From Periplaneta americana (Eukaryota; Arthropoda; Insecta; Blattodea; Blattidae), in contig NC_091120.1 of NCBI RefSeq assembly GCF_040183065.1, positions 183,484,396 through 183,548,395 on the forward strand: a stretch of DNA of 64,000 nt. Reading direction: 5' to 3'. Both the position numbers and the translations under genes were made by a program. Positions 2,110 through 58,413 of this stretch are shown in pieces. The stretch's first letter is position 1; each line of letters starts with the position of its first letter. The notes beneath the pieces were generated by a model that was not told where the DNA came from, ran no database searches, and saw only the letters and a list, made by a program, of their open reading frames with translations.

Positions 2110-4909
2110 AGAAACTCTGAACCAGAAATAATAATAGCGACCCTAAATGCACAACCCTCAGAACTTGCGACAGAGAGGAAGAACTGGACAATGCCTTAAA
2201 AGAAATAAAGTTCGACGTACTAGGCTTAAGCGAAGTTAGAAGAATGGGAGAATCAATAATAGAAAAAGAAAATGGTGATCTACTGTTTCACATAGGCACA
2301 ACCCCAGGCCAGAAAGGGGTGGGGTTCATTGTCAAAAGAGACCTAAAACACATGGTGATGGAACTAACGGGTATATCAGAAAGAATAGCAGTCCTAAAAT
2401 TAGCAACGAGAAATTCTCCAGTGACGATTATACAAGTGTACGCCCCTACAGAAGCAAGTAGCGAAGACGAATTAGAAAACTTTTACAAGAGTCTAGATAA
2501 CGCACTAGAAAAGTTCAAGTCACCAACGAACCTAATCATAGGCGACTTCAATGGCAAAGTGGGGTCACGCAGCCACGAAGATGAAGAACCAGTCGGACCA
2601 CATGGATTTGGGAGAAGAAATGACAGAGGAGATAGATTGGTCCAGTTTGCACAAGAGCACAGATTGAAAATAGCCAACACCTTTTTCAGGAAAAATCCCT
2701 AAAACAGATGGACGTGGAGATCACCCAACGGCAGCACGAAAAACGAAATTGACTACATCCTGAGCAACAGACAAAACTCCATAAGTGACATTCAAGTCGT
2801 AACAAACCTAAAATTCAGCACTGATCATAGAATGGTAAAAGCAACACTGAAACTAAAAAAAAGACGACGATGGAAGAAACATTCAAAACCAAGCATAGAA
2901 ATGTTAGACAATGAAGAATATAAGAGGAAAATGCAGAATCGGATGGCACAGACGGACTTCAGCACAGGAAAATGGCCACAAGAACTATATGACTCATTAG
3001 AGCACTGCATACTCCAATTATACGAAGACACTCAAAAGGCAGACAAGGCAAAGAAGCACAAGGGAAAGCTAAGCGAGGAAACCATAACACTAGTCAAACG
3101 TAGATCGGAGCTGTACCTCACGAGAGATGACTCGGAAAGAAACAAAGAAGAATACGCCAGGATAGATAAGCTAACAAAGAGAGAAATACGAAAAGACATC
3201 CGAAACCACCGAGCATCTTCTACGCGACAGATACTTGAATCTTACAAATCAGTCCGAAAGGCAAAAAGAGAGCTATATGGAGGCAAACAATGGATATTGG
3301 GAACCAAAGACCCGTCAGGGAACCGCATCACCTCAAGGAATAATATCATCGAAGCAGCCACAAAATACTATGAATCCCTATACACAAGTTCACTCCAGAA
3401 TCTTGCAACGAACCATATACCCAATACCAACCCCTCCCAGGTCACTCCTCCCATATTAGCCAGCGAAGTCAGGACGGCAATAGAAGAACTGAAGAACGGA
3501 AAAACTCCCGGCGAAGACGGTATACACAATGAATTCTTGAAGCAAGCCGCAGATCATCTGATACCGACCATCACCACTATCTACAACAAAATTCTGGACA
3601 CGGAGGAAATACCGGACCAGTGGAAATCAAGTACTATAATCCTCCTCCACAAGAAAGGCACAAAAGATGACCTAAACAATTATAGGCCAATAAGTCTCAT
3701 GTCTAACTTATATAAGCTGTTTTCGAAAACAATTACTAGAAGGTTAACGAAAACCCTGGATGAAAATCAACCTAACGAACAAGCGGGGTTCCGCTCAGGG
3801 TACAGCACGGCAGACCATCTCCAAACCGTAAGCCAGATCATGGAAAAGGCTGAAGAATTTCATTTAACAGTATACCTGGCCTTTGTAGATTATAGCAAAG
3901 CTTTCGATTCGGTTGAACACTCGAGTGTAATGCAAGCACTACATACGCAGAGAGTCGACAACAAATACATCACGATACTAAATAAACTGTATAATCAAAG
4001 CTGTGCCAAAGTGAAAACCGAGATCGAAGGACGACCATTCGGGCTCAAAAGAGGAGTGCGACAAGGAGACCCAATTTCCCCAAAATTATTCACAAGTGTA
4101 TTAGAAGACATTTTTCGCAAACTGAACTGGAACAGAAATTGTGGAATAAACATCAACGGCAGCAGACTAAATAATCTAAGGTTTGCTGATGACGTCGTAT
4201 TGTTCGCCAAATCACCCAGAGAACTGCAGTCAATGCTCCAAGATTTATGCAACGCCTGATGAATATGACCAAGACACAAGTAATGTCGAACGGGCCGGAG
4301 TCACCCATAATAATTGATGGTGCAGAACTACAATACGTATCTGAATACGTATACCTAGGACAGCTAGTCTCCTTTCATCAGAAGACAGAGAAGGAAATAA
4401 AACGAAGGATTTCTCTCGCGTGGAAGGCATTCTGGAGTCTCAAGTTCATCATACTGGAGGGAACACTCAGCAAGAAACTCAGAGTAGAAATATTGGAGAC
4501 CTGCGTAACTCCTGTACTGTTATATGGGTGCCAGACGTGGTCTCTTACTGCCAAACTTCGTAACAGTCTCCAAATATGCCAAAGAAAGATGCTGAGAAAG
4601 ATACTAGGCTTATCACTGAGGGACAGAGTTCCAAACGAAGTGCTACAAAAGATGGCAGCAATTAAAGATCCAGCACTGCAAGCCACCAACACCAAATGGA
4701 AGTGGGGAGGCCATGTTGCACGACTTAGAGACGAAAGATGGACGCAGAAAGTCACACTATGGGATCCCCGCATTGGCAAGAGATCACCCGGAAGACCAAG
4801 ACGAAGATGGGCCGACCTCTTCAGTGAACGAGTAGGAAGCCATTGGTCAAGCAGAGCAAGACATAGGGAAGACTGGAGAAACATAAGAAGACAAGTGAAC
4901 AGCGACTAA
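2110..4909 (+). pseudogene. LINE ORF2: endonuclease plus reverse transcriptase, broken
   Basis: The reading moves between frames. A frame break near 2155 splits the N-terminal endonuclease (next motif GLSEVRR). The endonuclease continues with YAPTE and IGDFNGKVG, then a nonsense TAA at 2701, then STDHRMV near 2820. The longest intact stretch (2832-4259, 475 codons) contains the reverse transcriptase: NYRPISLMSN, the catalytic FVDYSKAFDSV, RGVRQGDPISPKLF, and the catalytic LRFADDVVLFA. At about 4256 a small deletion shifts frame. The C-terminal domain continues at 4247-4909 (VLLYGCQTW, KRSPGRPRRRW). Key catalytic aspartates are present but the breaks make it non-functional. Confidence 0.9.
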
Positions 4910-6711: not shown

Positions 6712-8747
6712 CAGGGCTGGGCACATTACGTGATTCTGAGAAATGAGCGCCGTTTACTTTGAAGAGCAATTCTCCAGAGCGGTATGACGCTTGCATACTG
6801 TACGTCACACGCTGTCATTGCAGTGGTTGACTCTGCAGTAGGATGGCGAACTTTGAAGGTGCACCCGCCCGAGAAGCTGTATGTCGGACGAAAACCTAAA
6901 TTATATCTTGAGATTGAACATGGCTAATTCATATGTTCGAAACATTAAACGACTTCTGCACATGAAACGACCTCATAAGTATCGGAAAACAACCACATAG
7001 TTATTTTGGTTATTGAGTTTGAAAAAGTTTTGTTTCAATAGCAAATATTTATTGATTTCAGATTGATAGAAGTACGATTTTGTTACAATAGTTTATTCAT
7101 ACAAAAAAGTGTAAGAGAATGTTTATTATTAATTTTGTTCTTGTGTTACTGATTTAAATCCTTTATTATTAGGCCCCGGGAAAAGTATTGCTATCAGCTT
7201 AGTATGCAACACAGCAATACCTGCTTTGAGAGGGATGGGGTAAACAACGATAGACAGCGTGACACTGCCAGTAGTGCAGTTTGGTTCATGAGAAATGAAG
7301 TAATAGCCTACATGAAAGTCTCATTATTAGTGCGTCCTTTTGACTATTTTCCAGTGATTAGCTATGAAACTTACAAAGTGATATTCTAATTTATTCTCAT
7401 TAAGAGACCTAAATATTTAATTGTACTTGACATACTGGTAATATTATTTACGTATTGATGCGTTGCAATGAACTATGACATGCATGTGCAAGACATGTAA
7501 CGTGTATCATAATGCGTTTCAAGAAACTTTGCAGATTTCTTCATATAACTTGCAGCATCTGTAACATATACCCGGTAGTAACACATTTTCGAATTGCACA
7601 CATGATGGCCATAGCAACTCCATAGCACTATCAAAAAGTTCACATATGGTGGAATAATTAACCCTCTCTAACACTTCACTCATTAAGAGATAGGGTCTAC
7701 AGCAACATTCCGCACTAAGGGCAGCCACAACCACATTTGCAACGTGACGTCCAACGGAGTCCATGCTTTCACCAATAGAAAGAAACCCATATCTTCTCAT
7801 TTTATAATTTACACTTCACTTCACACAGACATTTCTAATATGCATATTGCACATACTTCTTCCGCAGTGTTGCGTCTTTAGGAATTTGTCTTCCAGTGTA
7901 CTTTTCTGAAAAGTCACGGAGTTTCGCGTTTTATAATTGGTTTAACGGAATATTTGAAGCAATAAACGTGTCACACACATCTTCGAAATGTTCGTTCAAG
8001 TACTTGTGAAGGAGATTCCTGCTGTACCTTGCTTAAATTCTGTTATCTGTTACATGCTTATTGCTATTTATATGCTTCTTAACGTTGCATGCCATGACGG
8101 CTGCCAATTTCACAAAACAGTTCATTACCGTGGATGGAAAACACATTTCTCCATATTGACGAACATATTTCCTCAGTGCTTCTATCTTGCGTACTTTTGG
8201 TCTCGGCATTCTGAAGACCCGTGTTCATTTACTATTGACTGCGTTGTACTAAGCTACGCCGACACTTCTCCTACCTTCACAGTGATGCGTGCGAGAGTCC
8301 TCGGTTCATAAACATTAACTATACTACATCGCGCGTTTCCCTGTAAGCAATACTTTCTCCGGGGTCTGTTTATTATATATGTTTATATTATTAATACCAT
8401 TATGTAATTGTTAAAGCATTGTGCATATAGATTGTGTAAATAAGCTTAATTATTTGTGTGTGTGTGCGTGCGTGTGTATACTGTATGTGTGTAAGTGATG
8501 TTTATTTCATTAAATTGATAATAATGTTATAAAGTCTGTACTGTACAATGGATTGATGCAATATCCTTATAAACTATTATGTACTGACAGACTGAATCGT
8601 GGCTCTCGTTATATTAATGCAGGGAAGGTAGCTGTAATGCGAGTCCGCCACTTCGTGAGCGTTCTGCTCAGACTTGGAATTGAAGTGCCTTTCGGAGCGA
8701 GAGTAGCTCTGGCACGCTAAACGGAGCCGCTCTCATGCCCGGCTCTG
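6712..8747 (-). mobile_element. hAT transposon, 2.0 kb
   Basis: Starts CAGGGCTGGGCA and ends TGCCCGGCTCTG, hAT-like imperfect inverted termini. It is flanked by an 8-bp duplication with one mismatch (GCGTAATG at 6704-6711, GCGTATTG at 8748-8755). A CGGBP1-like transposase remnant lies on the minus strand inside. It sits in the left duplication copy and is absent from the corresponding place in the right copy (61275-61300). Confidence 0.87.
7519..8209 (-). pseudogene. CGGBP1-like hAT transposase remnant
   Basis: The minus strand starts at the ATG complementary to 8207-8209 and reads MPRPKVRKIEALRKYVRQYG, followed by a degenerate zinc-finger region (FCKL-like becomes FVKLAAVMAC) and a stop. 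The frame resumes at 7800-7519 with FLSIGESMDSVGRHVANVV and LLWPSCVQFENVLL, typical of the catalytic region of CGGBP1-like hAT transposases. The C-terminal dimerisation half is missing. Stops and frame breaks make it a pseudogene of the hAT element 6712-8747. Confidence 0.75.
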
Positions 8748-17200: not shown

Positions 17201-20200
17201 ACTATAATTGGACAGATGAATGCAAAGCCGGAAGGAAGATAAGCACAAGAATAAGAAGAAGGAGAATAAGATTAAGAGGTGTTGCTAGCTAGTACATCGT
17301 GAAACATCTACGTAGCCAGAAAGGAAGCCCAAGAAAATTTAAAGAAACAGGCGAAAAGGATGAAGCTGATTTCCGATGCAATGCATCCGGAGGTATCATC
17401 ATAATATGCATTCCGGGTGTCAACAGGGGAAAAGCCGACTTGCGAAAAATCATAGGAATCGTGCTTGAGACAAATGGCGACCACTTGTAGAGAATGGGAA
17501 CAAAGGATGGAATTTTGAATAAACTATATTGCAGGTAGGTTGACTGAACTTTAAAAACTGAGAGATTAGTTTAAGAATTGGTTTTTCTGAACCGACGCAA
17601 GCGACGTGCGAGATGCGAGGCACGCCTCGCACAAATCCGGACAACACGAGAGATAGTGAGTGGTTTCTATGAGCGTATTCCGAATCTCACCGGTGAGCAA
17701 TCCGATTGCATCACGGTGTTCCGAATTCCACCGATGACGTCATTGATGCTCCACCAGGTGTCGCACCGGTGCCATCAACTTGCAGAGGTGGTGGCAGTCT
17801 CCATCAGCCGCCATCAGTGAATCTGATTGGTTCTTGTATAGGGCGGGAATTAGCAGACGAATAACATCATGCACTGTTGTGTCATGGCGGTGTGTTCTGC
17901 TTTAATTCTGCTGTATTGTTTGTAATGAGCACAACGTAAAAACAATATGTTAATGGCTTATGAGCGAACATGTTAACGGACCCGTTATTACTGCCGGTTC
18001 AAAGAAATAAATTGTTTATGCTATCTTTTCTTTGAACGAGATGGGAGTACGAAAATTTCGCAAAATTTTGCTAGCGTAGCACAGACAACAACTTGTACAG
18101 TCGCCATGACAGCCATCGATCCTTCCAGCAGTTTTGTTCCTTATTTCGCTGCAACGTGACGTCATCGATGCCACCGGACCGGTAAGATTCGGAATACGCT
18201 CAACAGGACTAACTGCGAGACGCGAGGTCTGCGCACCTCGCAACTATAGAAACCATTCACTATCTCACGTGTTGTCCGGATTTGTGCGAGGCGGGCTTCG
18301 CATCTCGCACGTCGCATGCGTCGGTTCAGTAAAACCAAGCCTTAATTTCATCAACACCCAGTACTTAACATTTTCTTTCTTTAGATCCGAATTTGATGTA
18401 TGTATGTAACTTTTTTCAATGAGGTCCTGACGAAGGTAGGAAAGAGTCTTCAAAGTCCGGCATAACGATTAAACTATAATGATACTTTTCTTCGATCAGC
18501 CTGTGTGATATACTTCTTCGTTCCGTCGCCCTCGGTAGCGCAGTTGGTATAGCACTGGCCTTCTATGCTCGAGGTTGCGGCCGAGGTCGATGGCATTTAA
18601 GTGTGTTTGAATGCGACATGCTCATGTCAGTAGATTTACTGGCATGTAAAAACTCCTGCGGGACAAAATTCCGACATACCGGTGACGCTGATATAACCTC
18701 TGCAGTTGCGAGCGTCGTTAAATAAACCATAATTTAATCTTAATTTCTTCGTTCCGCTTGTGTAACATTTTCTAGACCTTCAAGTGTTGACAGTTGCTGC
18801 CCTCTCTCGCAATATCATTCATGGCACAGATCTTCTCATTACCATCAAATTATCTGCCAATTCTTCGTTCCTTCACGTTTCTCGACGTATCACACTCACT
18901 ATAAAATTTCTTCCATTATTTTCTTTTGCATACTGAACTTCTACAATCAATAAATTAATTTCTTAACAAATATGGTGGTGGTCATGGCACACCTGTAGTG
19001 TAAAGGAAAGAAGTAATTAGTAACACTACATTTGAACTGGATTTGGACTTCGTGTGTTTCTTCCTTCAACCAATGGACTTCAAATGTTCTTAGTAAGAAC
19101 ACTAAGAACCATAAGTTTTGATGCGTGATTAAATTATACTATGATTTATTTTTTCAAATATATTATTCTCAAACGGAAGACCGGATCCTATTTCACAATA
19201 TTCCGTCAAATTCTTAATTTTCGAATTTTTGGAGTTCAATTTTTGTTTCTGTCTAACCTTCAGTCCCATTGAACACAAAAAAATTTCTGAATATGTATGA
19301 TAAGAACTTTCTTGTATTAAATTTTAACGTACCTTGTTAACATGTTTCGACCTATTTTGGGTCATCTTCAGAACAGGGCGTTGTTGGTCTTGGCGCCTCT
19401 TGTTTCCTGTGAGGGTGCGTTCATAGTGTAGAGTCAAAGAGTGTATGTCTTTTGAAATTGAGTTGTGTGTTGAGAATATCGTTGGGGTGTGTTTTCGTGT
19501 GTCTGTATATTTCATACTGTTCTAGTGTGTTGAGTTTCTGGCTTTTTGGTTGGATATGCAGTATTTCCATGTCTGTGTTGATGTCTTTGACTCTACACCA
19601 CGAACGCACCCTCACAGGAAACATGAGGCGCCAAGACGAACAACGACCATTTCTGAAGATGACCCAAAATAGGTCGAAACATGTTAACAAGGCGACCCTC
19701 ACAAGTTTTAACATTGTAACTCATTTTCTTCCATTTTTCAGGAGAAGCAAATAAAGTTTTTAAATTATCGTGTAAATCAGTGTATACAGATAGTAACAAT
19801 AAGATTTTACATACGATTGGGAAGGTTTAGAGCTACAATGATAGTACTGGAAGAAAAAGAAACAATTTAAGACCATATTAACTAGCATAACTCAAAACCA
19901 TAAAAAATTGAGTTACAATGTTAGTATTTGGGAGGGTCTAAGATACGTTAAAATTTAACACAAGAAAGTTCTTATCATACATATTCCGAAGTGGTACAGT
20001 GTTAAAAGTTGTGTAATCAAGATGTATGTACAAAAAAATTATTAGGTACGCCAACACCAGTACTTAAATCACAATATCCATAATTGTGAATGAATTAAAA
20101 ATGATTATAAGTAACATGTTTAAAAACTGAACTAAGTTAGAAACAGGCCTACACTGAGGCAGGATAACAAAAAACGTTAACGTTTTCTAGGAACATACTG

Positions 20201-23200
20201 TCTAGCAGGTATGTAGCAGTAAGTTTCACAACTCTTGCTCCTGATTGGCAAGATTGTCCCTAACGTTTAAGGTGGGAAACGTTCTTCTTTATAACCATCA
20301 GACTATAAACAAGTTTATAAACTGTTTTCAAGGAATACGATCTCTCAGACAAGTACTCTGACGTTGCAGTCGGGGATGATAGTGTCCAACGGCTACCCCA
20401 TGGAGACGCACATTGTGGTGACTGAGGACGGCTATGCCCTGACTGTACAGCGTATTCCTCACGGCCGTGACAAGGGTAATTCCAAGGACAGCGACAAAGG
20501 AGTCGTGTTACTGCAGCACGGAATATCCGGCAGCTCCGTCATCTGGGTGTTCAATGGAAAGGACAACGCACTCGGTGAGATATTTCATTTTACTTACACA
20601 TGCGAATCTAATCTTCTAATTATATGTAACATGTAGTCATTTAAAATAATGCAAAGAATAAGGGGACTTTCATGTGACGGCATGAAAAAAGATCATAAAT
20701 TTGGAACCATTTTAAACTATAGGGGAGACTGTTGTACCTTTAAACACATTTCACATTTTATTTTTTTTTAATTCTGTGAAATGATATTTTTTAAATTAAA
20801 AAATGCTTTAATAGTACATTATGCAACGAGCTTCTTAATTACCATTATAGGCGAGTTTCATACGACTTTTTATGCTCGACCTATTTCTAACTTGATATTA
20901 TTAATTTTATTTGTATCTGACCTTGGCCAATGTCCCGTATGTTGTGAGATGTGCGCAGACGCGAAAGTATTGATTTTTTCCGAGGAACTGATGTCCACAT
21001 TGACCTTGCTAGGCCATAAGAACCTACAGAGATAACATTGAAATTAAATTAGACATTGAAAAACGAGATGACAAATTGAATTTATTTGAATATTATTTAC
21101 AATTAACGCTAATTATTATAGTAACAGAACATAACCTTCTGCGACAGTATTGGATTTCCAGCCTCCGTGACTTTTCGCTAATTCTGTTTCGATTGCATAT
21201 CCGAGAATAATCGATACTTGCGGTTTTATAACGGTAGAAAGCTGACCTGTCATTGGCTGAACAGTTGTAACCTGAGTCGTCATTGGCTGAAAGACATGAC
21301 CTTTAATGAGGTGTACTTTAATGACATGCATTAAAGGACTGCTACCAGGTGTATATATACCACATTTCGGCATGGTCGATCATAAATAATTATTGAAGAT
21401 TCCTTTACAACTTCGTTTATATATTTTCCTGTTCTACACATCTATTAAGGATGGAAAAAATAAAATGTAAAATGTTCAAAGGTACAACAGGTTCATGTAC
21501 CTTAGAACATACCCTCTTTTAAGTTGGAACACATGTAATATAGCAGGGAATATAGTTGTAAGAACTGACAACCATATTTAAAATGTATTTGCAATCATAA
21601 ACCAGAGCGGGCTTCTCTGATTGAGATTTTATTTCCTGGAGGAGCAATAACTGCTTCAACAGTTTTCTTCAAGGCATCCGGATCAATTGGGGGCCTCTTA
21701 ACTGCAGACTTACTTCGTGATATGATCTTAAAATAAAAGAAAGACAAAAACCAATAGTATTATGTACCTTGGAACATGTTCCATGGTACAAGATGTTCTG
21801 TGTTCAAAGGTACAAGAGGGTGCACGTCTAAACAAATGTGGCTACCAAAACTAGAGATTCGAATAAATCATGGAAATTAAAATGTGTTATTACTCACCAG
21901 ATGATACGGAACACATTGTACTTAATGGATGGTAACAAATACAATCTGGTTTTATATATATCATTGAACGAAATGTTTACTTTTGGTACTAAAACTATTC
22001 TTTCGTTCACAGAACTCACACTTTGCAATAAATCAAACCATAACTACGACCAGAGCTACTTAGCGGCTTTCCCTACAATCTACTTCAGTTTGAGTCCTCT
22101 AGGTAGTAGCAAAAAATAAAAAAAAAACAAAACAAAAAATGTTCAAAGGTATGCTATGCTGAAAGTACAACAGTCTCCCCTACACGCATGAAAAGTTAGA
22201 GCCACAATTTGATGCAATTTTTGAAGAGTGAAATTGATCACTTAGTAACATTTTAGAATGCGTAACATAACTTTGATGTTCATAGTTTTCTTTACTCCTA
22301 TTATACAGAGTGAACCGTAAGTAATGTCATTAATTTCCGGGGGTTATTCCTTGAGATATTTAAAAAAAGCTGAATTCAATTAGCTCGTTTTCCCTTCTTT
22401 TTAGAGATAAAAATTGCTGGGAAAGCTGTTCATTGAATTCCCAATATGCTCAGTGAATTTAAGAGAGCACTGAATTATGATAAAAGGAATTTTGTTTTGC
22501 CCTTTAAATGTTCAGCAATTTATGACTGGACACGGAAAATTTAATTCATATTTCGAACGTTTCAAAATTCACAACCCAAACGGCTCTTCATGTTCCTGTG
22601 AACACCCCACACAAACAGTCGACCACCTGTTATTGGAGTGTCCGCTACAAGAACGCAAGAGATACCGGCTAGAAACCCATCTTAGCATGTGCGATACAGC
22701 TTTCTTACCACCAATAACAAAAGTTTCTCTGAAGCAATGTTGCTTAAAGGAATTTCACAGATTTATTACAGATGTGTTTAAGACCTTGTAGAAGAATAGT
22801 AATTAGTAACAGTGTCCTATTTATTCTTCTTGGAGCCAAATTTGTAACTATTAAAAGTGTGGTTACTATGTTGAAGTGTATGTGTTGTAACGGATGCTTG
22901 ATTTGTTATGTATGTGAGTCATAGTTATGGGATGCTTGATGTCGTCGCAATGTCGTAATTATAGTTTGATTGTGTTTGTGTGACTATTGTGTATTAATTT
23001 ATGATGTATGGTAGTTAACATTTTAATATTAATACTATTCTACTATGGCAGATAAGTGCAATGGATTTAAGCTCCATATATAAAGTATTCCTGAAAACTT
23101 TTACTAGAAATAATGGCAACATGAGCCAATATAAATTTACAAGACAGAGCATCACCTATTATAGAACAATTAATCTATTTTCCGGAAAGCTGCATATTTG

Positions 23201-35200: not shown

Positions 35201-38200
35201 ATTTGAAGACTGGTGAACAATTTTAAATGGTAAGTCCGATTGCACAAATACCGCAACACCACCTGCACGTTTACAGACATGATTATTTCTACAGAGGGCG
35301 TAATTATCTAAACTACAAGAGAATATGTTAGGAAAGACATTAACCACGTTTCAGAGATGAGAATAGCGTGAAAGGACAAGGGTAAAAAATAGATTGAATC
35401 TCAATGAAATGACAGAGAAAGCTTTGCGCACTTAAGTGGGCAACTTTTAAACTGTTAGGATGGAAGAGAAGAACATTTTTAACAAGCACGTGTTGAATGC
35501 TATAACACTGGTTATAATCCTGTAACACACTTTGTATATAAACATAGTAATGTACAGAGACATCATTTTATTTTTACTGACATTTTTAATATTAACTTGC
35601 CCATACCTCTGGATCAACGCCGTTTGCTACCCCCTTCCACGACTAGAGTTCCATGATTCTGGCGTAATATACAAACAAATCACTTTACTAGGTATAGGAG
35701 GGAAGAAAAGTAGTTCATCCATTTACGTAAACTAGAAAATATTGCGCTTTTGAGTTTGATCATTTTCATTAGGTTTTTGTTTAATCAAAATACAGTACAG
35801 TATTAACAATGAGTGTTTTTACTCACGAACTGAGCTGTCCATGTGGGCGTATTCATTATGCAGTGTATATTATACTGTCTACAGCACATTAGCGTACAAT
35901 ATAGAGAATGAAGTTAAATTGAAAAATAATCATAATATGGATATTTAAACACATTTTTTAAAATGGTAGCCGTTCATTTCGATACAGGCTTCAATTCTTT
36001 TGTGCATATTATCGCACTATAGACTATTGTACCTAATCCCAATTACAAGGTTCGTACTTCATATCAGTAACTCATGTTGAAATAATTCTGTACCTACTCT
36101 ATAAAAGAGTACCTTACGTACTGTAAATTTAATCTTCACTTCTGCCCGATCCAAAAAGATAAAATTACTCACACATACTATGTACTGTCCGTCCAAGTGG
36201 TTATATCGTAGTGTCGTAGAAAGGGGAGAAATCACGTGAGAGTTAATTAGCTACTTAACGAGGCCCTTTAATTTAAGTTATTTTAAACAGTTCTATAGTA
36301 TTACTTAAACGTCCAATTCCTAACAGAAATTAATGTTCTCAGAAAAGAGCTAAGACAGCCCGGCCACTAGCTGGCGAATAAAAGCTGGTGGGGGAAACCG
36401 GGATACGACGTAGGCAAACGGACGACAGTACCTGTGCGAAAATGATTCAATATTGAAAGCTCTTTCGTCACTGGAAAACGCGAACATATTTTGGAACGTA
36501 CTGTTTACTACGACCGTAAGGCTACTATGACTGTATATGCGGTCTTGGATCTGTGTGGAGGACGGTTGAACTTCATTAGTGGAAGGGGTGGGAATGAAGT
36601 ACATTAAAAAAATTAGGTACAATAAAAATTGAAGTAAAAATAAAATGATGTCCCCGTACAATGTACAAGTGGTTTAATATTTTAAATTGGATTCACACTA
36701 CAGAAGAAACATAATCCAGAGGACCGTGCCGCCTAGGTTTGTTGTGATTCAAGCTGTATGAGGACAGTACATACTTAGAAAGAATTAATTTATTTTGTAA
36801 TGCAAACTTCGCTTTCCTTTTCTCTGAAAAGAACAACTTTGCCTTATTTACGCTTTTAATACTTTTTATCCGTTGTTAGGTCCTACAAGATTCAAAAACT
36901 CATAGGTATGCTGTAATTTTCTAATTACGAAGTAAAGAAAAAAAATCATCCATTTTGAATCTTGCGTACACTACTTTTAATACTTGAATATAATTAATTG
37001 ATTAACTAGCGGACTTACTCGTGTTAATTATGTAAGATTTGTGCGGTTTAGAGCTGTTTCAGTGCTTCACGCACCATCCTCAAAGCCTACTAAATCACGG
37101 CGTCATCTCGAACTTCTCTGCCTGTTATGTGGGTGTGTTTGATTGTTGAAAGGCGTTGAAGAGTGGAGTCAAATAGTGTGTGTATACTGAAATTGATCTG
37201 TGTGTTGAGAATTTGATCGGGGTGTGTTTCAGTGTGTTTGTATATTTCGTACTGTTCTAGTGTGTTGAGTTTTTGGTTCTTGGGTTGTATGTGTAGGATT
37301 TCCATGTCCGCATTTGTGTTATTGTATGTATGGTTAGCATTAAAAATAGATAGGTTAAAACATACAAATCTGAGTCCTACTTAAAGACGTATTATTATTA
37401 TTGATTACAGTTTCAAACAACTCACTGACGTCATATTTATGTGTGAATTGTATCGACTACCAATTGCATTGCTGTCTTAAGACTAGACCCCACTGAATGG
37501 GGAAGCGATTATGAAGACGTTAACGGGACGAATAAAATTAACTACAATAAAAATGTTATTTCAAATTCAAAACATTCTTCAGTCCCAACTATGCTCAGCA
37601 ACCATGAACGCTTAACGCTTAACGCTTAACTATTTTATGCAATTACACGGATTCGATGTTTTCTCTACTTTATTTTGTGTTTGTCATGCATTTATAAAAT
37701 GTTCTAATTACGTTCATATATTTCTCGCTGTCTACTTAAGGACGATGATATAATCCATTTTTTTTAACTATAACGACTCGACCTACAGTCTCTTGATCAC
37801 AACTCGATACATCCACTTCGGGATCCATCTACTTATTTGCTCAACTTGTGTCACAGCCGTGGCGAAAAGGCCATGGTGCGCCGAGCCACTGTGTAAGCTG
37901 CAACGTGCATAGCACCTATGGAGGGAGGCGGACAACCGAAGGGGAAGTTAATGTTTAGGACGTGTAACGAAGAAAGAAATGAACAAGAAAACATAGGACA
38001 CATTATCACAACCTAAAATTAATTGTCTTCAGAATGTCTCTGCGACAAAGTTTCAAAATCAGGAATTATGTCACTTACTGCCAATCGTAGTTGATCACGA
38101 AGGTATTTGTCTGTCAGTCGTGATCTAAATTTGATTTGTACTATTTTCATTGTTGAAAATAATTTTTCACAAACGTAAGTTACAGCGAACATGGCTTCAA

Positions 38201-38453: not shown

Positions 38454-41400
38454 CCTTAACCTTTTAATGTTTCATCAGTAACATGTAACTTATAATGCCG
38501 TTTTATGTTATACAACCGTTTTCCTAGTAATATTTGTGAACAAATCATACATTTAATATTTTCATCATATTGTAAGCAAAAGAATGCATCCTCCCATCCT
38601 ACTTGAAACTTTCGTTTTTTATAGAGGTACATGGTTTCGAGAGAGATATTGCGACGATACGCCACTCGCAGGTCCGAGACAAATACAAATAGAACGGAGT
38701 TTGACTCCAGTGAGTAAGAGGATGGGGGTTGTAGGTAGGAAGCGAGAGAAAAGCACTGCAAGCCACAATGTGCTCGTGAGTCGCATTTTCGCCGCGGCTG
38801 ACTTATGATCTTCTACGCATTAACAGTGGCTAATTTTTCCAGCCTGGACGAAGGCAGTGTTTATGACTTGCCGGCTGTAATCGACTATATCCTGGAGAAG
38901 ACCGGAAAAGAGAAGATCATTTATGTGGGGCACTCCATGGGCACTACCTTGTTCTACATCATGATGTCTCAACGGCCCGAATACAACGAGAAGATCACGG
39001 TCATGATCAGTTTAGCCCCTATCGCCTACGCGTGTCATTCAAAAAGTGGTGTGGGTTATGTGCTGGGCTATCTTTACGATCCACTCAGCGTAAGTATCAG
39101 TCTGTTATAGCATTACTATTTCAGTACGCGTGGGAGTCAACCGAATTGATTGTGACGTTGACAAAATCTGATGATAAGCAGATACAGTCAACGCAAACTG
39201 CACATGTAGATATGACACTCTCTGTAAGCTCGGCTGACGTCAGACTGAGAGTGGGGATTACCCCGCTACAACTCATTACAAAAATATCAGTTCAAGGAGG
39301 CATGATTAGCATAACGTCATTCCTTTGGAATAGGAGCTGAAAATTTTGTGAAGGATGTTTACGAATTAGAATATTTGGAATGATTAAAAACATTTTATTT
39401 TGCATATTTGTTTGTTTTTTTTTTGTTGTTGTTGTTGTTGTTATTGTAGTAGATATCTGAGAAAACCTCTGGCATATATTTACATAATTTAACACTTTAT
39501 TATGACATTATCTGTAAGCTCGGCTGACGTCAGACTGAGAGTGGGGATTACCCCGCTACAACTCATTATAAAAATATCAGTTCAAGGAGGCATGCTTAGC
39601 ATAACGTCATTCCTTTGGAATAGGAGCTGAAAATTTTGTGATGGATGTTTACGAATTAGGATATTTGGAATGATTAAAAACATTTTATTTTGCATATTTG
39701 TTTGCTTTTTTTTTGTTGTAGTAGATATCTGAGAAAACCTCTGGCACATATTTACATAATTTAACACTTTATTATGACACTATCTGTAAGCTCGGCTGAC
39801 GTCAGACTGAGAGTGGGGATTACCCCGCTACAACTCATTACAAAAATATCAGTTCAAGGAGGCATGCTTAGCATAACGTCATTCCTTTGGAATAGGAGCT
39901 GAAAATTTTGTGAAGGATGTTTACGAATTAGAATATTTGGAATGATTAAAAGCATTTTATTTTGCATATTTGTTTGTTTTTTTTTTGTTGTTGTTGTAGA
40001 TATCTGAGAAAACCTCTGGCATATATTTACATAATTTAACACTTTATTATGACATTATCTGTAAGCTCGGCTGACGTCAGACTGAGAGTGGGGATTACCC
40101 CGCTACAACTCATTACAAAAATATCAGTTCAAGGAGGCATGCTTAGCATAACGTCATTCCTTTGGAATAGGAGCTGAAAATTTTGTGATGGATGTTTACG
40201 AATTAGAATATTTGGAATGAATAAAAAAATTTTATTTTGCATATTTGTTTGTTTTTTTTTTGTTGTTGTTGTTGTTGTTGTAGTAGTAGATATCTGAGAA
40301 AACCTCTGGCATATATTTACATAATTTAACACTTTATTATGACACTATCTGTAAGCTCGGCTGACGTCAGACTGAGAGTGGGGATTACCCCGCTACAACT
40401 CATTACAAAAATATCAGTTTAAGGAGGCATGCTTAGCATAACGTCATTCCTTTGGAATAGGAGCTGAAAATTTTGTGATGGATGTTTACGAATTAGGATA
40501 TCTGGAATGATTAAAAACATTTTATTTTGCAATTTTATTTTTGTTGTTGTTGTTGTAGACATCTAAGAAAACCTCTGGCATATATTTATATAATTTAACA
40601 CTTTATTTCAAATATGATATATATTTTTTATTTCAAAGATATTCTTGTCAGTAAATCGCTTTAAATTTATTTTACTAGCATCACCCGCCACGCAAGGAAG
40701 TGTTCGGCGAATTGATATCATTGCCATTAAGAACAACTCGGCATACATTCTCGATCTCACCATCAGATTTGAGACACATGCAGATCAACCGCATGAGGTG
40801 GACAGTGAAAAGAAACGGATCTATGAACCAACAATCCCGTTCTATAAAGATAAATATAGCCTGTCCCGCATTGATGTAATAGGTCTGATGGTGGGAGCAC
40901 GAGGTACCATACCCTTCTTCTTTGCCAACAAACGTAAAAACCTGGGCCTAACACACAGCATTGTGAAGGAAATAGCCATTAGTACCCTCAAAGAATCAGT
41001 TCGGATATTGAGAAATCACTTGTATGGGAGTGATAATGGAAATTTCAAGTTATCTTAACCGATGGCTGTTGGTGGTTTAGATATCAATGCCAATCAATCC
41101 GTACTAATATTTTTCTCGCGGTATATGGCATTCAAATCATTCTAACCTATCTGATGATATTCCCCCCCCCCTTTCTTAACTGTGAATGAGCACAAACCCT
41201 TCTTAAATGTAAATTTTTCTGACATTTTGTATATTCGATTCTCTAACAGTTTCAAATGTATATTATTTTACCTTTTAGGTGTGTTTCCAAATTATATGTA
41301 ATACGGTTTGTCAAATCTGGCAACATTTTCATAAGGGAAGCTATATTTATTATTATATATATGGATTCTGGTATTCTGGGGATTTGAAGTTGCGACCCAA

Positions 41401-47400: not shown

Positions 47401-50400
47401 AGTTTCTCTAGATGGACATAATGCTATAATGTTATTACAGTAAATTCTGATATAATATAATACAATATAATATAATATAATATAATATAGTATAATATAA
47501 TATAATATTACATATTATATAATATAATTTAAGTTATTTGAAGGGATCAGAACCATAGTGGGCTAAGCGCCATTTACTGAATACGTAGAAAACAAGGGTT
47601 AAAATTAAGTTATTACCATAATTCAATGGAAATCTATAACAAGTAAAATAAAATATACAAATTAAATTTAAATGATGTCAATCTTCATTAAACTATGTTT
47701 GCATGTAATAAAAATTAATAAACATGTTAAAGGAATTGTCATTGCACCAAATGAGTGGTCTCTGGGCCAAAATGATCGCATTTTAATTATTTGAATACAA
47801 TTTAAATTAAGTAACATATTAAACGATTTATCCTTGTATCAATCACGAATGTTCCCGGGATCAAATGTCCTATTTTAATTATGTAATTACTTTATATTTA
47901 TTTCTAACGGGTGCAGCGGAGCGCACGGGTACGGCTAGTATCCAATAAAATGGTAAATGTTAAAATTAACTTGCACTGATATTGGATATTTTATAATATT
48001 TAACCACGATGGTCCACATTAAGAGAAGACTACTCTAACAACATGTCATCGAAGTGATCACGTGAACTATTGTTAACATATATATTTTTATCTATTTCAT
48101 CCTCAATATATTTTTATGTAGTTTATTAACAGCATCAATGATGTTCATGAATGTTCCAATTCCACAGTCAAGCAAACCTATTTAAATGTAACAGGCATTC
48201 GCATTTGAAAGTGGTACACACGTACTGAAAACGTTAATGCTATAAATGTAATACTAGATAAGCACAGACTGTTTAATTTATTCAATACTTAAGATTATAA
48301 CTTGCTTATCGGAAACTTCATACATAATGAAATTAACATAAAATTAGTTACCTTAGAAATTACATAAAATATAGTAGAAAATTACAAATAGTCAAGATCA
48401 GTTATATAACATAAGGAGAATATAAAATAAAGTAGAAAAAAATTACACATAATCAAAATCAGTAACATAACATAAGGGGAATATATACAATTTATAAGAC
48501 ATAAACTGCTCGAGATAAATTCGACGATTAATTCACTAGAGTTATAGTATACCGTTAATATACTAATAGAATACATGTGGGTTACAAGACATAAGAAGTT
48601 GAGAAGCAAAAACGTACTATATGGCATACAGATACAAATGATTAAGTAAAATATCAAGATAACAAAAAGAAAAAAAAAGGAGAGAGAGGAGAAAAAAATA
48701 ACAACTTGGTCATTTAAGATATTTAGAGACTTCCGCAAGAGTCTAGGTCTGTTCAATAAAAACATTTCTAAGTAGAGTGTACTTAAAAGATTTTAGACTC
48801 CGACTGCTCCTGATTTCCTGTGACAAGGAATTGCAGGAACGGACTGTGTGTATTGTGAACGAAGCAGAGTGGACAGATGTTTGATGATATGGAATTGATA
48901 GAACAAAGTTATGCTGTGAACGCGTATCACGGTTGTGGTGGGGTGCTAAAAGTGTGAAGCGAGGAACTAGGTAAATAGGTGTAGAATTATTTAGAACCTG
49001 ATACAGCAAACAGAGTGAATGAACTGAATGTCTCTCTCGTAATTGAAGCCAAGATAATTGTAAGAAATACTCGGAGACATGATCATAGCGACGGCTGTTA
49101 AAAAAGAAACGGACACAAGCATTATGAACACGCTGAAGCCCCAATGATAATTCAACACCAAGGTCTCTATAAAAAATGTCGCAATAGTCAAAGTAAGGTA
49201 TCACTAGGATATGTATCAAGATCTATATCAGTTTGGAAGGAAAGAAATTGTTCAGTCTTTTCAATGTTGCAAGATTGAGAAAGTTTTCTTACAGACATAT
49301 TTTTACACGTACATTCTAGCTGAGATTCGAGTCGAAATGAAAACCTAAGTTTTTAACGGTAGTACTGAATGGTATTATAGTATTACTTATGTCACTGTCA
49401 AAAGTGTATTAATGCTGATGGAAGATATTAATCTTTGATGTCCTAGTAGAATTACTCGCGTTTTACCTGGATTAAGGTTTAGCCCGCATTTTCTAGCCCA
49501 GCTGCTGACTAACGTAAGATCGTGATTTAATTTTGAAAGCCTATCATTAAGTGAGTTTGGTCGTGAATGTATATATATCTGTAGATCATCTGCACAGAGA
49601 TGATGCTGACAATATTTAAGAACAGTAGAGATGTCGTTAATGTAAATAGCGAAAAGTAGAGGCCCTAGTACAGATCCTTGAGGGATTCCTGCCTTCACGT
49701 CTCGCCATGAAGAAAACCGATAATTGTGAGACATACATTGGTGGCGATGGCGAAGGTAAGACTCCATCCACATGATTGCCGTGTCTGATAAATGCAACAT
49801 TTTAAGCTTTGCAATAAGAATATCAATATCGATAGTCTCAAATGCTCGAGAAACGTCCTGTAGTGATAGTACGGTCACTTCGCGTCTGTCCATAGCTTCA
49901 CGAGCATTTTCAGTGACCTTATGTAGGTAGTAGAGGTGCTATGATTTGGTCTGAAGCCGGACTGGAGTGGGTCAAGGAGATTATGCGAGTCAAGGTAGTC
50001 GGTGAGCTGCCTGTGGACTATACGTTCTAGTACTTTAGATAACGTCGGAAGAATACTTAGGCCTACTGGTCTGTAGTCGGTAGGAGTGGTAGGCTGAGTG
50101 ACTTTAGGGAGGGGTCGAATAAGTGCATATTTCCATTGTACAGGGTAAGAGGATGTGATAAGAGAAGCGTTGACGATATGTGTAAGAGATGGAAAAATAA
50201 TGTCGATTATTTTATTAAGCATTATTACGGTAATACCGTCGGTGTCTTGTGCTTTTGTTTTGATAGGTTTTAAAGATTTGATTACGTCTGTAGGAGATAC
50301 ATCAGACAGAAAAAAATTTCTCACGCATAGGGGGAGGTCGGGATATGAGTTAATTTATAACTTGTTGTTTTGTGACACTGTCAGGACAAATGGGTGGTGA

Positions 50401-54801: not shown

Positions 54802-56218
54802 CAGTAGTTATTGATGCAACAATAATAATAATAATATTGATTTACGTAAAATGTTATTGAAGCAAGGAAAAACAAGAATTGTTATTGCAAAAAAAACCTA
54901 TGATATAATGCAATAATTATCAACAAGTAGGTACAATAAAATAAATATGTTACTATTTTAACATACGTAATCAAGACAATCATGGATTGCATACCACTGT
55001 ATTAGAGGATGCGTGTTAAAGAAAACTTTACAAATTTTTCACCATCAGTGAAAGCAAAGACTTTATACTAACAAGATGGATGCTAGGAGCGCCACATGCA
55101 AGATGTCTCCCTATTATATCGTGCGAACCACTATAAGATGTCCGTCTTGTTAGTACAAAGTCTTTGATGAAAGCCACAGAGGGCGTAGTAATGAATGAGA
55201 ACATGTTGTAAGAAAAAATAATGTCTGTTCTCTTAACCGGATTTTCGGTTAACAATGGTTCTGCTGTGACAGCATGAGTGTAGTACTATATGAACGAACC
55301 TATGATCATCTTCGGAAACTACAAGAAGCATCCTATTCGCGACTGCGTCCCGCTTTGGTGTGAAGACAACAACGAATTTCGCAGCGATCGCGGGATTACA
55401 AGTTTCGCCGTCGCTCCCGCGTCCCGCGTCCCGCGTTGGTGTGCGCAGACCTTAAATAAATTGAATATTAATTGCTACTTTTCGCTCTATTTTACAGAAT
55501 GTTTACTTTAAACCTCATTACCCATTTTTGGCTTACACCACTTCTGCTCTGAACGGCTCATATGGTTCCAGACTTTAGCTTCATCCTGTATTACGTTTGA
55601 GTTTACGATGAACGTTTTGAGTACACTACAGTATGAGATAGCTCATATGTGCTTTATTATATTTGCTCACTGTCTATGAAAAGTTTCTACTCCACTGTTC
55701 GCGCAGAGGCGGCCAAACTAAAAATATACACCTGTAACAGATTTTATGTTGGAGTCAATTTGACTACGACATATTTTAGAATCCTGTATATTTTTCTAGT
55801 AACAAGCATTCACACAACTACAGTACTAGTAAAATCAATAGCTGTAATTGTATTTTACGTAGACGGGATTGTAACATTGTCTGCTGATATTTTTCAGGGC
55901 GTTTCTGTCAATATGACTACGGCAAATCTGAAAACCTCAAGCGCTACAACAGCACCCAACCACCCAGCTACAACATCAGTGAAACAAAAGTGCCTGTTGC
56001 TATACTCTACTCAGATGGCGATACTACCGCCGATGTAATTGTAAGTATAACTGTGTTGTGTCAGTAGAATAATTATTATGTAACCATGGCAGCCATATTG
56101 TAACACGTACCTTGTTTTATGTAACACTGTTGAGTGATAAGGGCAGCTATTTCCATAACGTTCAATAATAATAATACACCTATTATAAGTGATAAGGGCA
56201 GCTATTTCCATAACGTTC

Positions 56219-56268
<50 letters not shown>

Positions 56269-56309
56269 ACCTATTATAAGTGATAAGGGCAGCTATTTCC
56301 ATAACGTTC

Positions 56310-56362
<53 letters not shown>

Positions 56363-56403
56363 ACCTATTATAAGTGATAAGGGCAGCTATTTCCATAACG
56401 TTC

Positions 56404-56474
<71 letters not shown>

Positions 56475-56646
56475 ACCTATTATAAGAGATAAGGGCAGCT
56501 ATTTCCATAACGTTCAATAATAATAATACACCTATTATAAGTGATAAGGGCAGCTATTTCCATAACGTTCAATAATAATAATACACCTATTATAAGTGAT
56601 AAGGGTAGCTATTTCCATAACGTTCAATAATAATAATAATAATAAT

Positions 56647-56684
<38 letters not shown>

Positions 56685-56725
56685 ACCTATTATAAGTGAT
56701 AAGGGCAGCTATTTCCATAATGTTC

Positions 56726-56760
<35 letters not shown>

Positions 56761-58413
56761 ACCTATTATAGGTGATAAGGGCAGCTATTTCCATAACGTT
56801 CAATAATAATAATACACCTATTATAAGTGATAAGGGCAGCTATTTCCATAACGTTCAATAATAATAATACACCTATTATAAGTGATAAGGGCAGCTATTT
56901 CCATAACGTTCAATAATAATAATACACCTATTATAAGTGATAAGGGCAGCTATTTCCATAACGTTCAATAATAATAATACACCTATTATAAGTGATAAGG
57001 GCAGCTATTTCCATAACGTTCAATAATAATAATACACCTATTATAAGTGATAAGGGCAGCTATTTCCATAACGTTCAATAATAATACACCTATTATAAGT
57101 GATAAGGGCAGCTATTTCCATAACGTTCAATAATAATAATACACCTATTATTATTATCGAACATTATGGAAATAGCTGCCCTTATCACTCAACAGTGTTA
57201 CATAAAACAAGGTACGTGATACAATATGGCTGCCGTGGTTACTTAACACAAGAGTACGTGATATAGTAGGAGCCAGCGATTATGGCAGACGGATTTTTTT
57301 AATGTGAACTCCAGAGCGAGTTACTCACCGATGCAAGGTCGGCTTATATCTCCACAGCAGCGGTGACCAAAACTCGAGCTGCAGTGATTACATGCGACAG
57401 ACAGCCTATGAAGTAAGGAGACGGAGGAAAGGTACTCGGCATAAATCTACAACCAGTGGTGGTTCCTGTATTAACATCTTCACGGATTCTGACGGATTTC
57501 GAGGTGTTAGACTGACGGGGATACAATTGATGTGTTGGCAACACTGCATTGAGGTCACCTGCCAAAATCGCTGCCTCCGACTGTACAATACGGCTGCCGT
57601 GGCACGGGATCTGCCTTCCGGGCGACAGGCCGAGCATCAGCCGGTAAAATGCTGTCTACAACGGCGGAAGCAGAGATGGATTAAAACATACCCTACAGTA
57701 GATGTTGAAAGCGTCGTCCTTTCGCCTGTATACAAGCTTCATATAGCGAGAATAAGCTGTCACAAACTCGTCTAAACTCATCAACTGAAATGATTCTCAA
57801 TTCATGCTCAATATCAGCCTGGAGTTCTCTAATGAAGTGGTTTCCAAACTTTCTGAAGATTCGACTCACTTCGGTGAGACTTCTTTTGCGACCCCCCCCC
57901 CACCCCTCCTTGCCGTACAGGTACTAAACCCCAATAGAAAAATATAAATCCTTGTAAAATTGAAAATAATGATAATTTTACTCAAAACCAGTGGATACCA
58001 CCCAAAGTATGCCCAAACTGAATTATATTTGGTGCAAAAATTACATGAAATATTAGGTAAACATCATTTCCAGTAGACCAAACCATTATCACCGTGACGT
58101 TGTGGTAATAGTTGAATACAAAGTGGTAAATTCCATCAAAGAAAGGGCGTTGCAAACTTGTATTTTAAGTAAAATTTGTGAAGGTATAGGTTCGTTATAT
58201 GAAAATACTCTCTATCACACAAAAATGGCTTTCTTGTGGTAACGTGATGAAAAGATTTTTACATTTAGGAACATCATTTTTCATACACCTGACTTTTAAT
58301 AAACAAGACGAGAAATCGGAATCTATGCAAACCTATTTGCCAATTGAAGAATGTGATCCCAAAACTCATTCAGTCCATTTGGTCATTTTTTATTAATTGT
58401 ACATATATTATAA

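Follow-up and report, generated by a model that had tools for sequence, protein, structure and literature searches.

The locus at 19.3 kb of the analysed window (a stretch of 64,000 nucleotides of Periplaneta americana DNA) very probably represents the decayed 3'-terminal region of a Penelope-like element with a minimal type I hammerhead motif that is present twice, in opposite orientations; by the example of published elements, this motif would cleave the transcript at the junction of element units. The Penelope-like element at this locus has decayed, lacks its 5' part and has inverted ends; it is one dead copy of an element which is very common. The motif layout was found in two subfamilies of such elements.

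The motif and the element at 19.3 kb

The type I hammerhead layout with one extra T before stem II, which had been claimed in the earlier note, is present at 19378-19332 of the minus strand. This copy of the motif (copy A1, 19332-19378) reads CCCTGTT-CTGAAGA-T-GACC(CAAAATA)GGTC-GAAACATGTT-AACAAGG. Stem I is formed by the strands CCCTGTT (19378-19372) and AACAAGG (19338-19332) with six of seven pairs. It is followed by the intact core CTGAAGA (19371-19365), by the extra T (U in the RNA) between A9 and stem II (19364), and by stem II GACC/GGTC (19363-19360 with 19352-19349), which has 4 bp and a 7-nt loop. The remaining parts are the GAA (19348-19346), the palindrome ACATGT as a minimal stem III (19345-19340) and the H17 position, which is T (19339); the cleavage site would lie between 19339 and 19338. 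The ACATGT palindrome is too short for closing within one molecule, and all three stems could therefore form in a dimer only.

The RNA folding prediction returned stems I and II of A1 with an ordinary energy (z -0.66, about -8 kcal/mol for the motif alone). A full motif descriptor, written after the motif had been seen, gave A1 as its sole match in the 64-kb window, and the same post-hoc descriptor found no match in 300 first-order Markov windows. The Rfam model RF00163 (Hammerhead_1) aligned its core columns to A1 with a score of 21.3 bits, which is 13 bits short of the gathering score of 34, the E value being 0.033 over 1.2 kb and 1.8 over the whole window. The gathering score is a curated cut-off and not a biological definition. 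The Rfam scan of the window showed no hammerhead at gathering level, and this sub-threshold match was the sole match to a hammerhead model. Taken together, the sequence, the model match, the fold and the descriptor support A1 as a minimal type I hammerhead layout, located where a Penelope-like element ends.

An inverted twin of the motif, missed by the earlier note, is located at 19646-19692 on the plus strand (copy A2). Its core and stem II are intact and its stem I is broken, with just two pairs, both adjoining the core. Unlike A1, its lowest-energy fold in the RNA folding prediction is not a hammerhead, and stems I and II are not formed. The letters of a type I core (CUGANGA...GAA, A15.1-U16.1 and H17) are complete in A1 and A2 and incomplete in copy B, which is described below. 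The two copies lie in terminal arms of 109 nt each, 94% complementary, which form the inverted repeat I1. The arm in sense orientation covers 19332-19440 of the minus strand, and the truncated element's 5'-terminal arm, which is inverted, covers 19584-19692 of the plus strand. What remains in the 143 nt between the arms (19441-19583, minus strand) is part of the C-terminal endonuclease region of the Penelope-like ORF. The stretch 19417-19573 showed 83% identity to 37153-37308 (minus strand), which lies upstream of copy B and is a fragment of the endonuclease C-terminus in the second subfamily. A stop occurs early in the endonuclease frame of the window copy; among relatives, for example in L049, this frame crosses the motif and closes in loop II.

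Both arms extend about 50 nt beyond the motif. The distal end of the element past the motif (19285-19335, minus strand) showed 94% identity over 51 nt to an inverted copy at 19940-19990 (plus strand), which is the distal end of the inverted arm, set off by an insert. This insert of about 247 bp (19693-19939, no strand assigned) is a palindromic sequence, the inverted repeat I3, splitting the inverted or right arm; it has terminal inverted repeats at 19694-19741 and 19891-19938 with AAGG/AAGA at its borders, features which suggest a MITE-like insert. The outer inverted repeats (19269-19335 and 19940-20006) were also considered as a host palindrome hit by an insertion. This reading was rejected because the genome copies show the repeats to be the element's own ends, one arm of which is split by the small palindromic insert. 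A transcript through both arms is predicted to fold into a hairpin of -198.9 kcal/mol, in which A1 is paired with its A2 twin. Since this long hairpin buries the motif, the modelled fold indicates that the motif at the 19.3-kb locus is most likely silent in place.

The earlier note had also placed the motif in a Penelope-like terminal repeat, and this assignment was borne out. The element is Penelope-like by its sequence features, because reverse transcriptase and GIY-YIG motifs are found upstream of the motif in the relatives and because inverted terminal arms are present, both in the window and in 24 of the 37 first-subfamily loci holding an arm, where two arms occur in opposite orientation. 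The reverse transcriptase and the endonuclease of the relatives lie on the same strand as the motif; the window holds fragments only. The Pfam domain RVT_1 was above cut-off in L059, L114 (48.4 bits) and L115 (37.8 bits) and below cut-off in L041. A GVY...YIG motif and YVDD were found in one open frame in L114, L115 and L116. The Pfam GIY-YIG scores were below cut-off (18.7 bits in L036, while in L116 a related model reached 17 bits), and therefore the GIY-YIG half of this single-ORF assignment rests on the motif; in L070 and L114 Pfam GIY-YIG was absent. The second-subfamily locus L116 has inverted arms of 609 nt matching at 98.9%. A clean tandem unit was seen in none of L049, L114 and L115.

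A further copy of the motif, copy B (37045-37087, minus strand), belongs to the second subfamily. It had been described as having the same layout with a different stem II, and this part stands, with stem II GGTGC/GCACT (from 37075) and the extra T (37076) in place; but the core is TTGAGGA (37083-37077) with C3 changed to T, stem I (37087-37084 with 37048-37045) contains a single mismatch, and mutation has altered the palindrome of stem III (ACAGCTCT). Copy B scored 77.3 bits with the model R1, its own sequence being among those from which R1 was built. The location in a lipase intron, claimed for the motif, is borne out for copy B and is putative for the 19.3-kb copy. The Pfam search covered nine pieces, six of them from the window, and lipase domains were recognised in two window pieces at 20295-20633 and 38802-39107 of the plus strand; hence copy B lies between two lipase exons, and the first lipase exon recognised is downstream of the 19.3-kb copy. 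Elsewhere in the window, further reverse transcriptase fragments, probably of LINE type, were observed at 2703-4256 (plus strand, RVT_1 105.8 bits) and 49387-49935 (minus strand, 76.8 bits). A repeated stretch at 56145-57118, partly with a spacing of about 55 bp, contains many minus-strand copies of GGAAATAGCTGCCC.

Two subfamilies with one layout

The relatives of the first subfamily were sampled with a 70-nt query, which gave 42 matches in the assembly of the window (3.23 Gb, 91 contigs). From these, 38 stretches covering the 41 matches outside the window were taken. A total of 77 arms was found by nhmmer and 13 arms in duplicate stretches (L028-L035) were dropped; of the 64 arms left, two are from the window and 62 come from 37 of the 38 loci, with no arm found in L073. 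This sample is non-random. The query carried T at U4, and for this reason arms with U4=C are, if anything, under-sampled. A systematic T/C difference after AACAAGG between the arms of one element was considered and rejected. It probably stems from the query, whose last letter was the less common C, and the endonuclease side was not always the one with the C arm. For the second subfamily, 35,782 first-look candidates were obtained with a 49-aa query from the endonuclease C-terminus, and 150 matches among them were scored. Forty of the 150 scored ends were taken, all of which resemble the second subfamily. The alignment contains 38 rows, 37 from these ends and the window copy, as L084, L099 and L109 were dropped for a truncated or deleted motif.

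The consensus of the first subfamily is GTT-CTGAAGA-T-GACC(loop)GGTC-GAAACATGT-T^AAC, with a stem I of 3 bp only in nearly all copies, and that of the second subfamily is GGCT-CTGANGA-T-GGTGC(loop)GCACT-GAAACAGCTGT-A^AGCC. The structural conservation proposed earlier for the two window fragments was recovered at the level of the subfamilies, where all three stems differ and the core and the extra U are kept, as judged by comparison and not by a formal score. This stem replacement offers stronger support for the hammerhead reading than the slight covariation within the second subfamily. The core letters of CUGANGA and GAA are kept in 32 of the 38 second-subfamily rows and 33 of the 64 first-subfamily arms, and the extra T in 38 of 38 and 63 of 64, respectively. 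Stem II pairing is kept in 33 of the 38 second-subfamily rows. Everything tested is kept in 23 of these rows and in 24 of the 64 arms.

The covariation of the second subfamily was analysed with shuffled alignments. Among the 30 distinct sequences of the 38 rows, 95.6% of the cells were paired, which was not above the shuffles (112 of 500 reach this proportion), and the covariation score was reached by 84 of 500. Changes on both sides were seen in two pairs and three cells, and values as high came up in 18 and 21 of the 500 shuffles. The pairing was lost in the sliding controls, which is expected because the structure was taken from the consensus. A lack of stem II covariation or of any hammerhead model match had been named in advance as refuting the reading. 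The stem II covariation found is slight, and a model match exists, but it lies below gathering level, so the reading was refuted by neither, although each of the two results came close. The Rfam scan of 20 related loci (18 of the second subfamily and two of the first) gave no hammerhead match up to E 5. With the second-subfamily model, first-subfamily arms gave only weak matches (E 0.15 to 0.43), which came from three of 18 scanned loci. One weak match of this model, at position 1833 of L071, was read in sequence and rejected as chance-like; the other weak match is at 6824 of the window.

Two other explanations of the layout were weighed. That core-like letters came together by chance within an AT-rich repeat is already contradicted and is extremely improbable. 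The ordinary folding energy would suit it, as would a looser frame pattern without stem requirement, which matches 27 stretches of viral contigs; but none of these 27 matches forms even 3 bp of stem II, the full descriptor is found in none of the 300 Markov windows, and the layout is found in both subfamilies, each time at the same position in the same type of element. Viral contigs were also tried as a source of relatives and rejected, as none of the 27 pattern matches has a 3-bp stem II and no protein relative was found. Rfam showed no hammerhead at gathering level in the 16 of these 27 matches scanned.

It is likewise improbable, to a lesser degree, that the layout is a by-product of coding or regulatory sequence, namely of the endonuclease C-terminus, a start codon and a splice donor, and was never a working ribozyme in these subfamilies. 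The first-subfamily ORF running across the motif to its stop in loop II agrees with such an origin, as do the silence of the U4 to C change in the endonuclease frame, the donor-like AAG|GTACGT seen by eye just downstream of the motif and the result of the Rfam scan of the 20 related loci. The intact frames of the second subfamily, however, stop before the core, and yet the core, the extra U and stem II are kept there at the frequencies given above; stem pairs with changes on both sides also exist.

The U4 to C branch

Of the 64 first-subfamily arms, 35 have T at the U4 position of the core, 28 have C and one has G, whereas most neighbouring columns are near-invariant. The U4=C arms were derived from 18 loci, two of which also have a T arm; L040 and L058 were among the first-subfamily loci in which the T/C split was noticed. 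The two arms of a single locus differ at U4 in L064 and L066, with T in one and C in the other, as expected if the ends were copied from different template RNAs or if mutation followed later. In the overlapping endonuclease frame, the U4 to C change leaves the amino acid unaltered (TCT to TCC, ...SSED...). All 28 arms with U4=C have G at the first loop position, and the same G is found in seven T arms. The median divergence from the own consensus was 3.0% for the 28 U4=C arms, 3.7% for the seven T arms with loop G and 4.5% for the 24 T arms with loop C (window left out). The arm-to-arm divergences overlap among the U4=C and T groups.

The effect of a U4 to C change on hammerhead activity is severe. 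Because 28 of the 64 arms carry this change, which is silent in the endonuclease frame, the ribozyme core is eroded in part of the first subfamily, apparently in a still-amplifying branch. A multi-copy branch would then have fixed the silent change, and its spread would be no older than that of the intact branch, with amplification proceeding without catalysis or needing the fold alone; this reading is offered tentatively and is held to be rather unlikely. Core changes generally lower hammerhead activity, as described by Perreault et al. 2011 (PMC3088659). A branch of the U4=C type was not found among titles and abstract openings on hammerheads, Penelope-like elements and such genomes, a comparison to which Cervera and De la Pena 2014 and Lunse et al. 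2017 do not belong.

If true, the branch would be a natural experiment for amplification without hammerhead catalysis or with a need for the fold only, and it is of possible interest to specialists. The very many copies (the 35,782 candidates came from a single 49-aa stretch) and the branches with and without an intact core would allow a test by comparative genomics. The question whether core loss alters copy ends, tandem structure or amplification is testable by such comparison.

Proposed role and comparison with known systems

A working element would carry the motif where the end of one unit's ORF meets the start of the next unit. Pairing via the palindrome ACAUGU in a dimer, or the aid of an element protein, may allow the transcript to be cut at GUU^A, and by the example of published elements this cleavage would help in processing multimeric RNA near the template end. 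Donor-like sites were observed by eye at the predicted cut or a few bases past it, i.e. AAG|GTACGT at 19335-19328 of the minus strand of the window for the first subfamily, and CT|GTAAGC near 220-230 of the minus strand of L075 for the second. Because of this position, cleavage and splicing could exclude each other.

The proposed arrangement resembles that of PAc, a Poseidon element of Anolis. The PAc ORF starts at stem II, and its start codon precedes the cut site by 26 nt, as described in PMC11167929. The motif in both cases lies at the junction of pLTR and ORF, with an ATG at the start of stem II and a cut about 26 nt after the start codon. In the present families the extra U belongs to an ATG overlapping A9 and the first base of stem II, and the distance from ATG to cut is 27 nt as counted on the sequence. 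By analogy, the same geometry suggests the same role, which is the processing of multimeric transcripts, as a dimer or with protein. According to the account in PMC11167929, the PAc ribozyme cut only with added protein, and catalytic mutants left the in vitro insertion unaffected. The same source places the start of PAc reverse transcription 111-118 nt into the ORF and describes the stretch between the two start sites as an optional tail; here, two drops in conservation were seen over the 64 arms, one after position 81 and one near 119, counted from the ATG. The present elements differ from PAc in that the ATG frame is short, closing after 13 codons in the first subfamily and nine in the second, and in that the first subfamily's own ORF has its stop in loop II. 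Because the ATG frame closes early, the start-codon reading either needs splicing or is wrong for both subfamilies. The extra U was accordingly rejected as part of an ORF start codon in these families and kept as a parallel to PAc only.

Inverted pLTRs, as well as a pLTR spanning the first 12 ORF codons, have been published for Adineta, as described in PMC3846280. Minimal, possibly dimeric hammerheads in the terminal repeats of Penelope-like elements, which the earlier note had cited in support, are indeed published (Cervera and De la Pena 2014; Lunse et al. 2017, as cited in PMC6155905, PMC7229834 and PMC7761336). The motif resembles these in its type I layout, its minimal or absent helix III, its place in the terminal repeats of Penelope-like elements and the possible dimers. 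By the descriptions in the citing papers, it differs in its sequences, in the extra U and in the large U4 to C subset of one subfamily. Insertions of one or two nucleotides beside CUGAnGA are known in alignments according to PMC10085705. With respect to RF00163, the aligned core columns are shared, and the difference lies in the score (21.3 against 34 bits), the extra U and the very short stem III. The role of hammerheads in Penelope-like elements is called unknown in the review PMC7761336. The combination of a Penelope-like element with a hammerhead motif is already known from other animals, and the present elements provide a further example.
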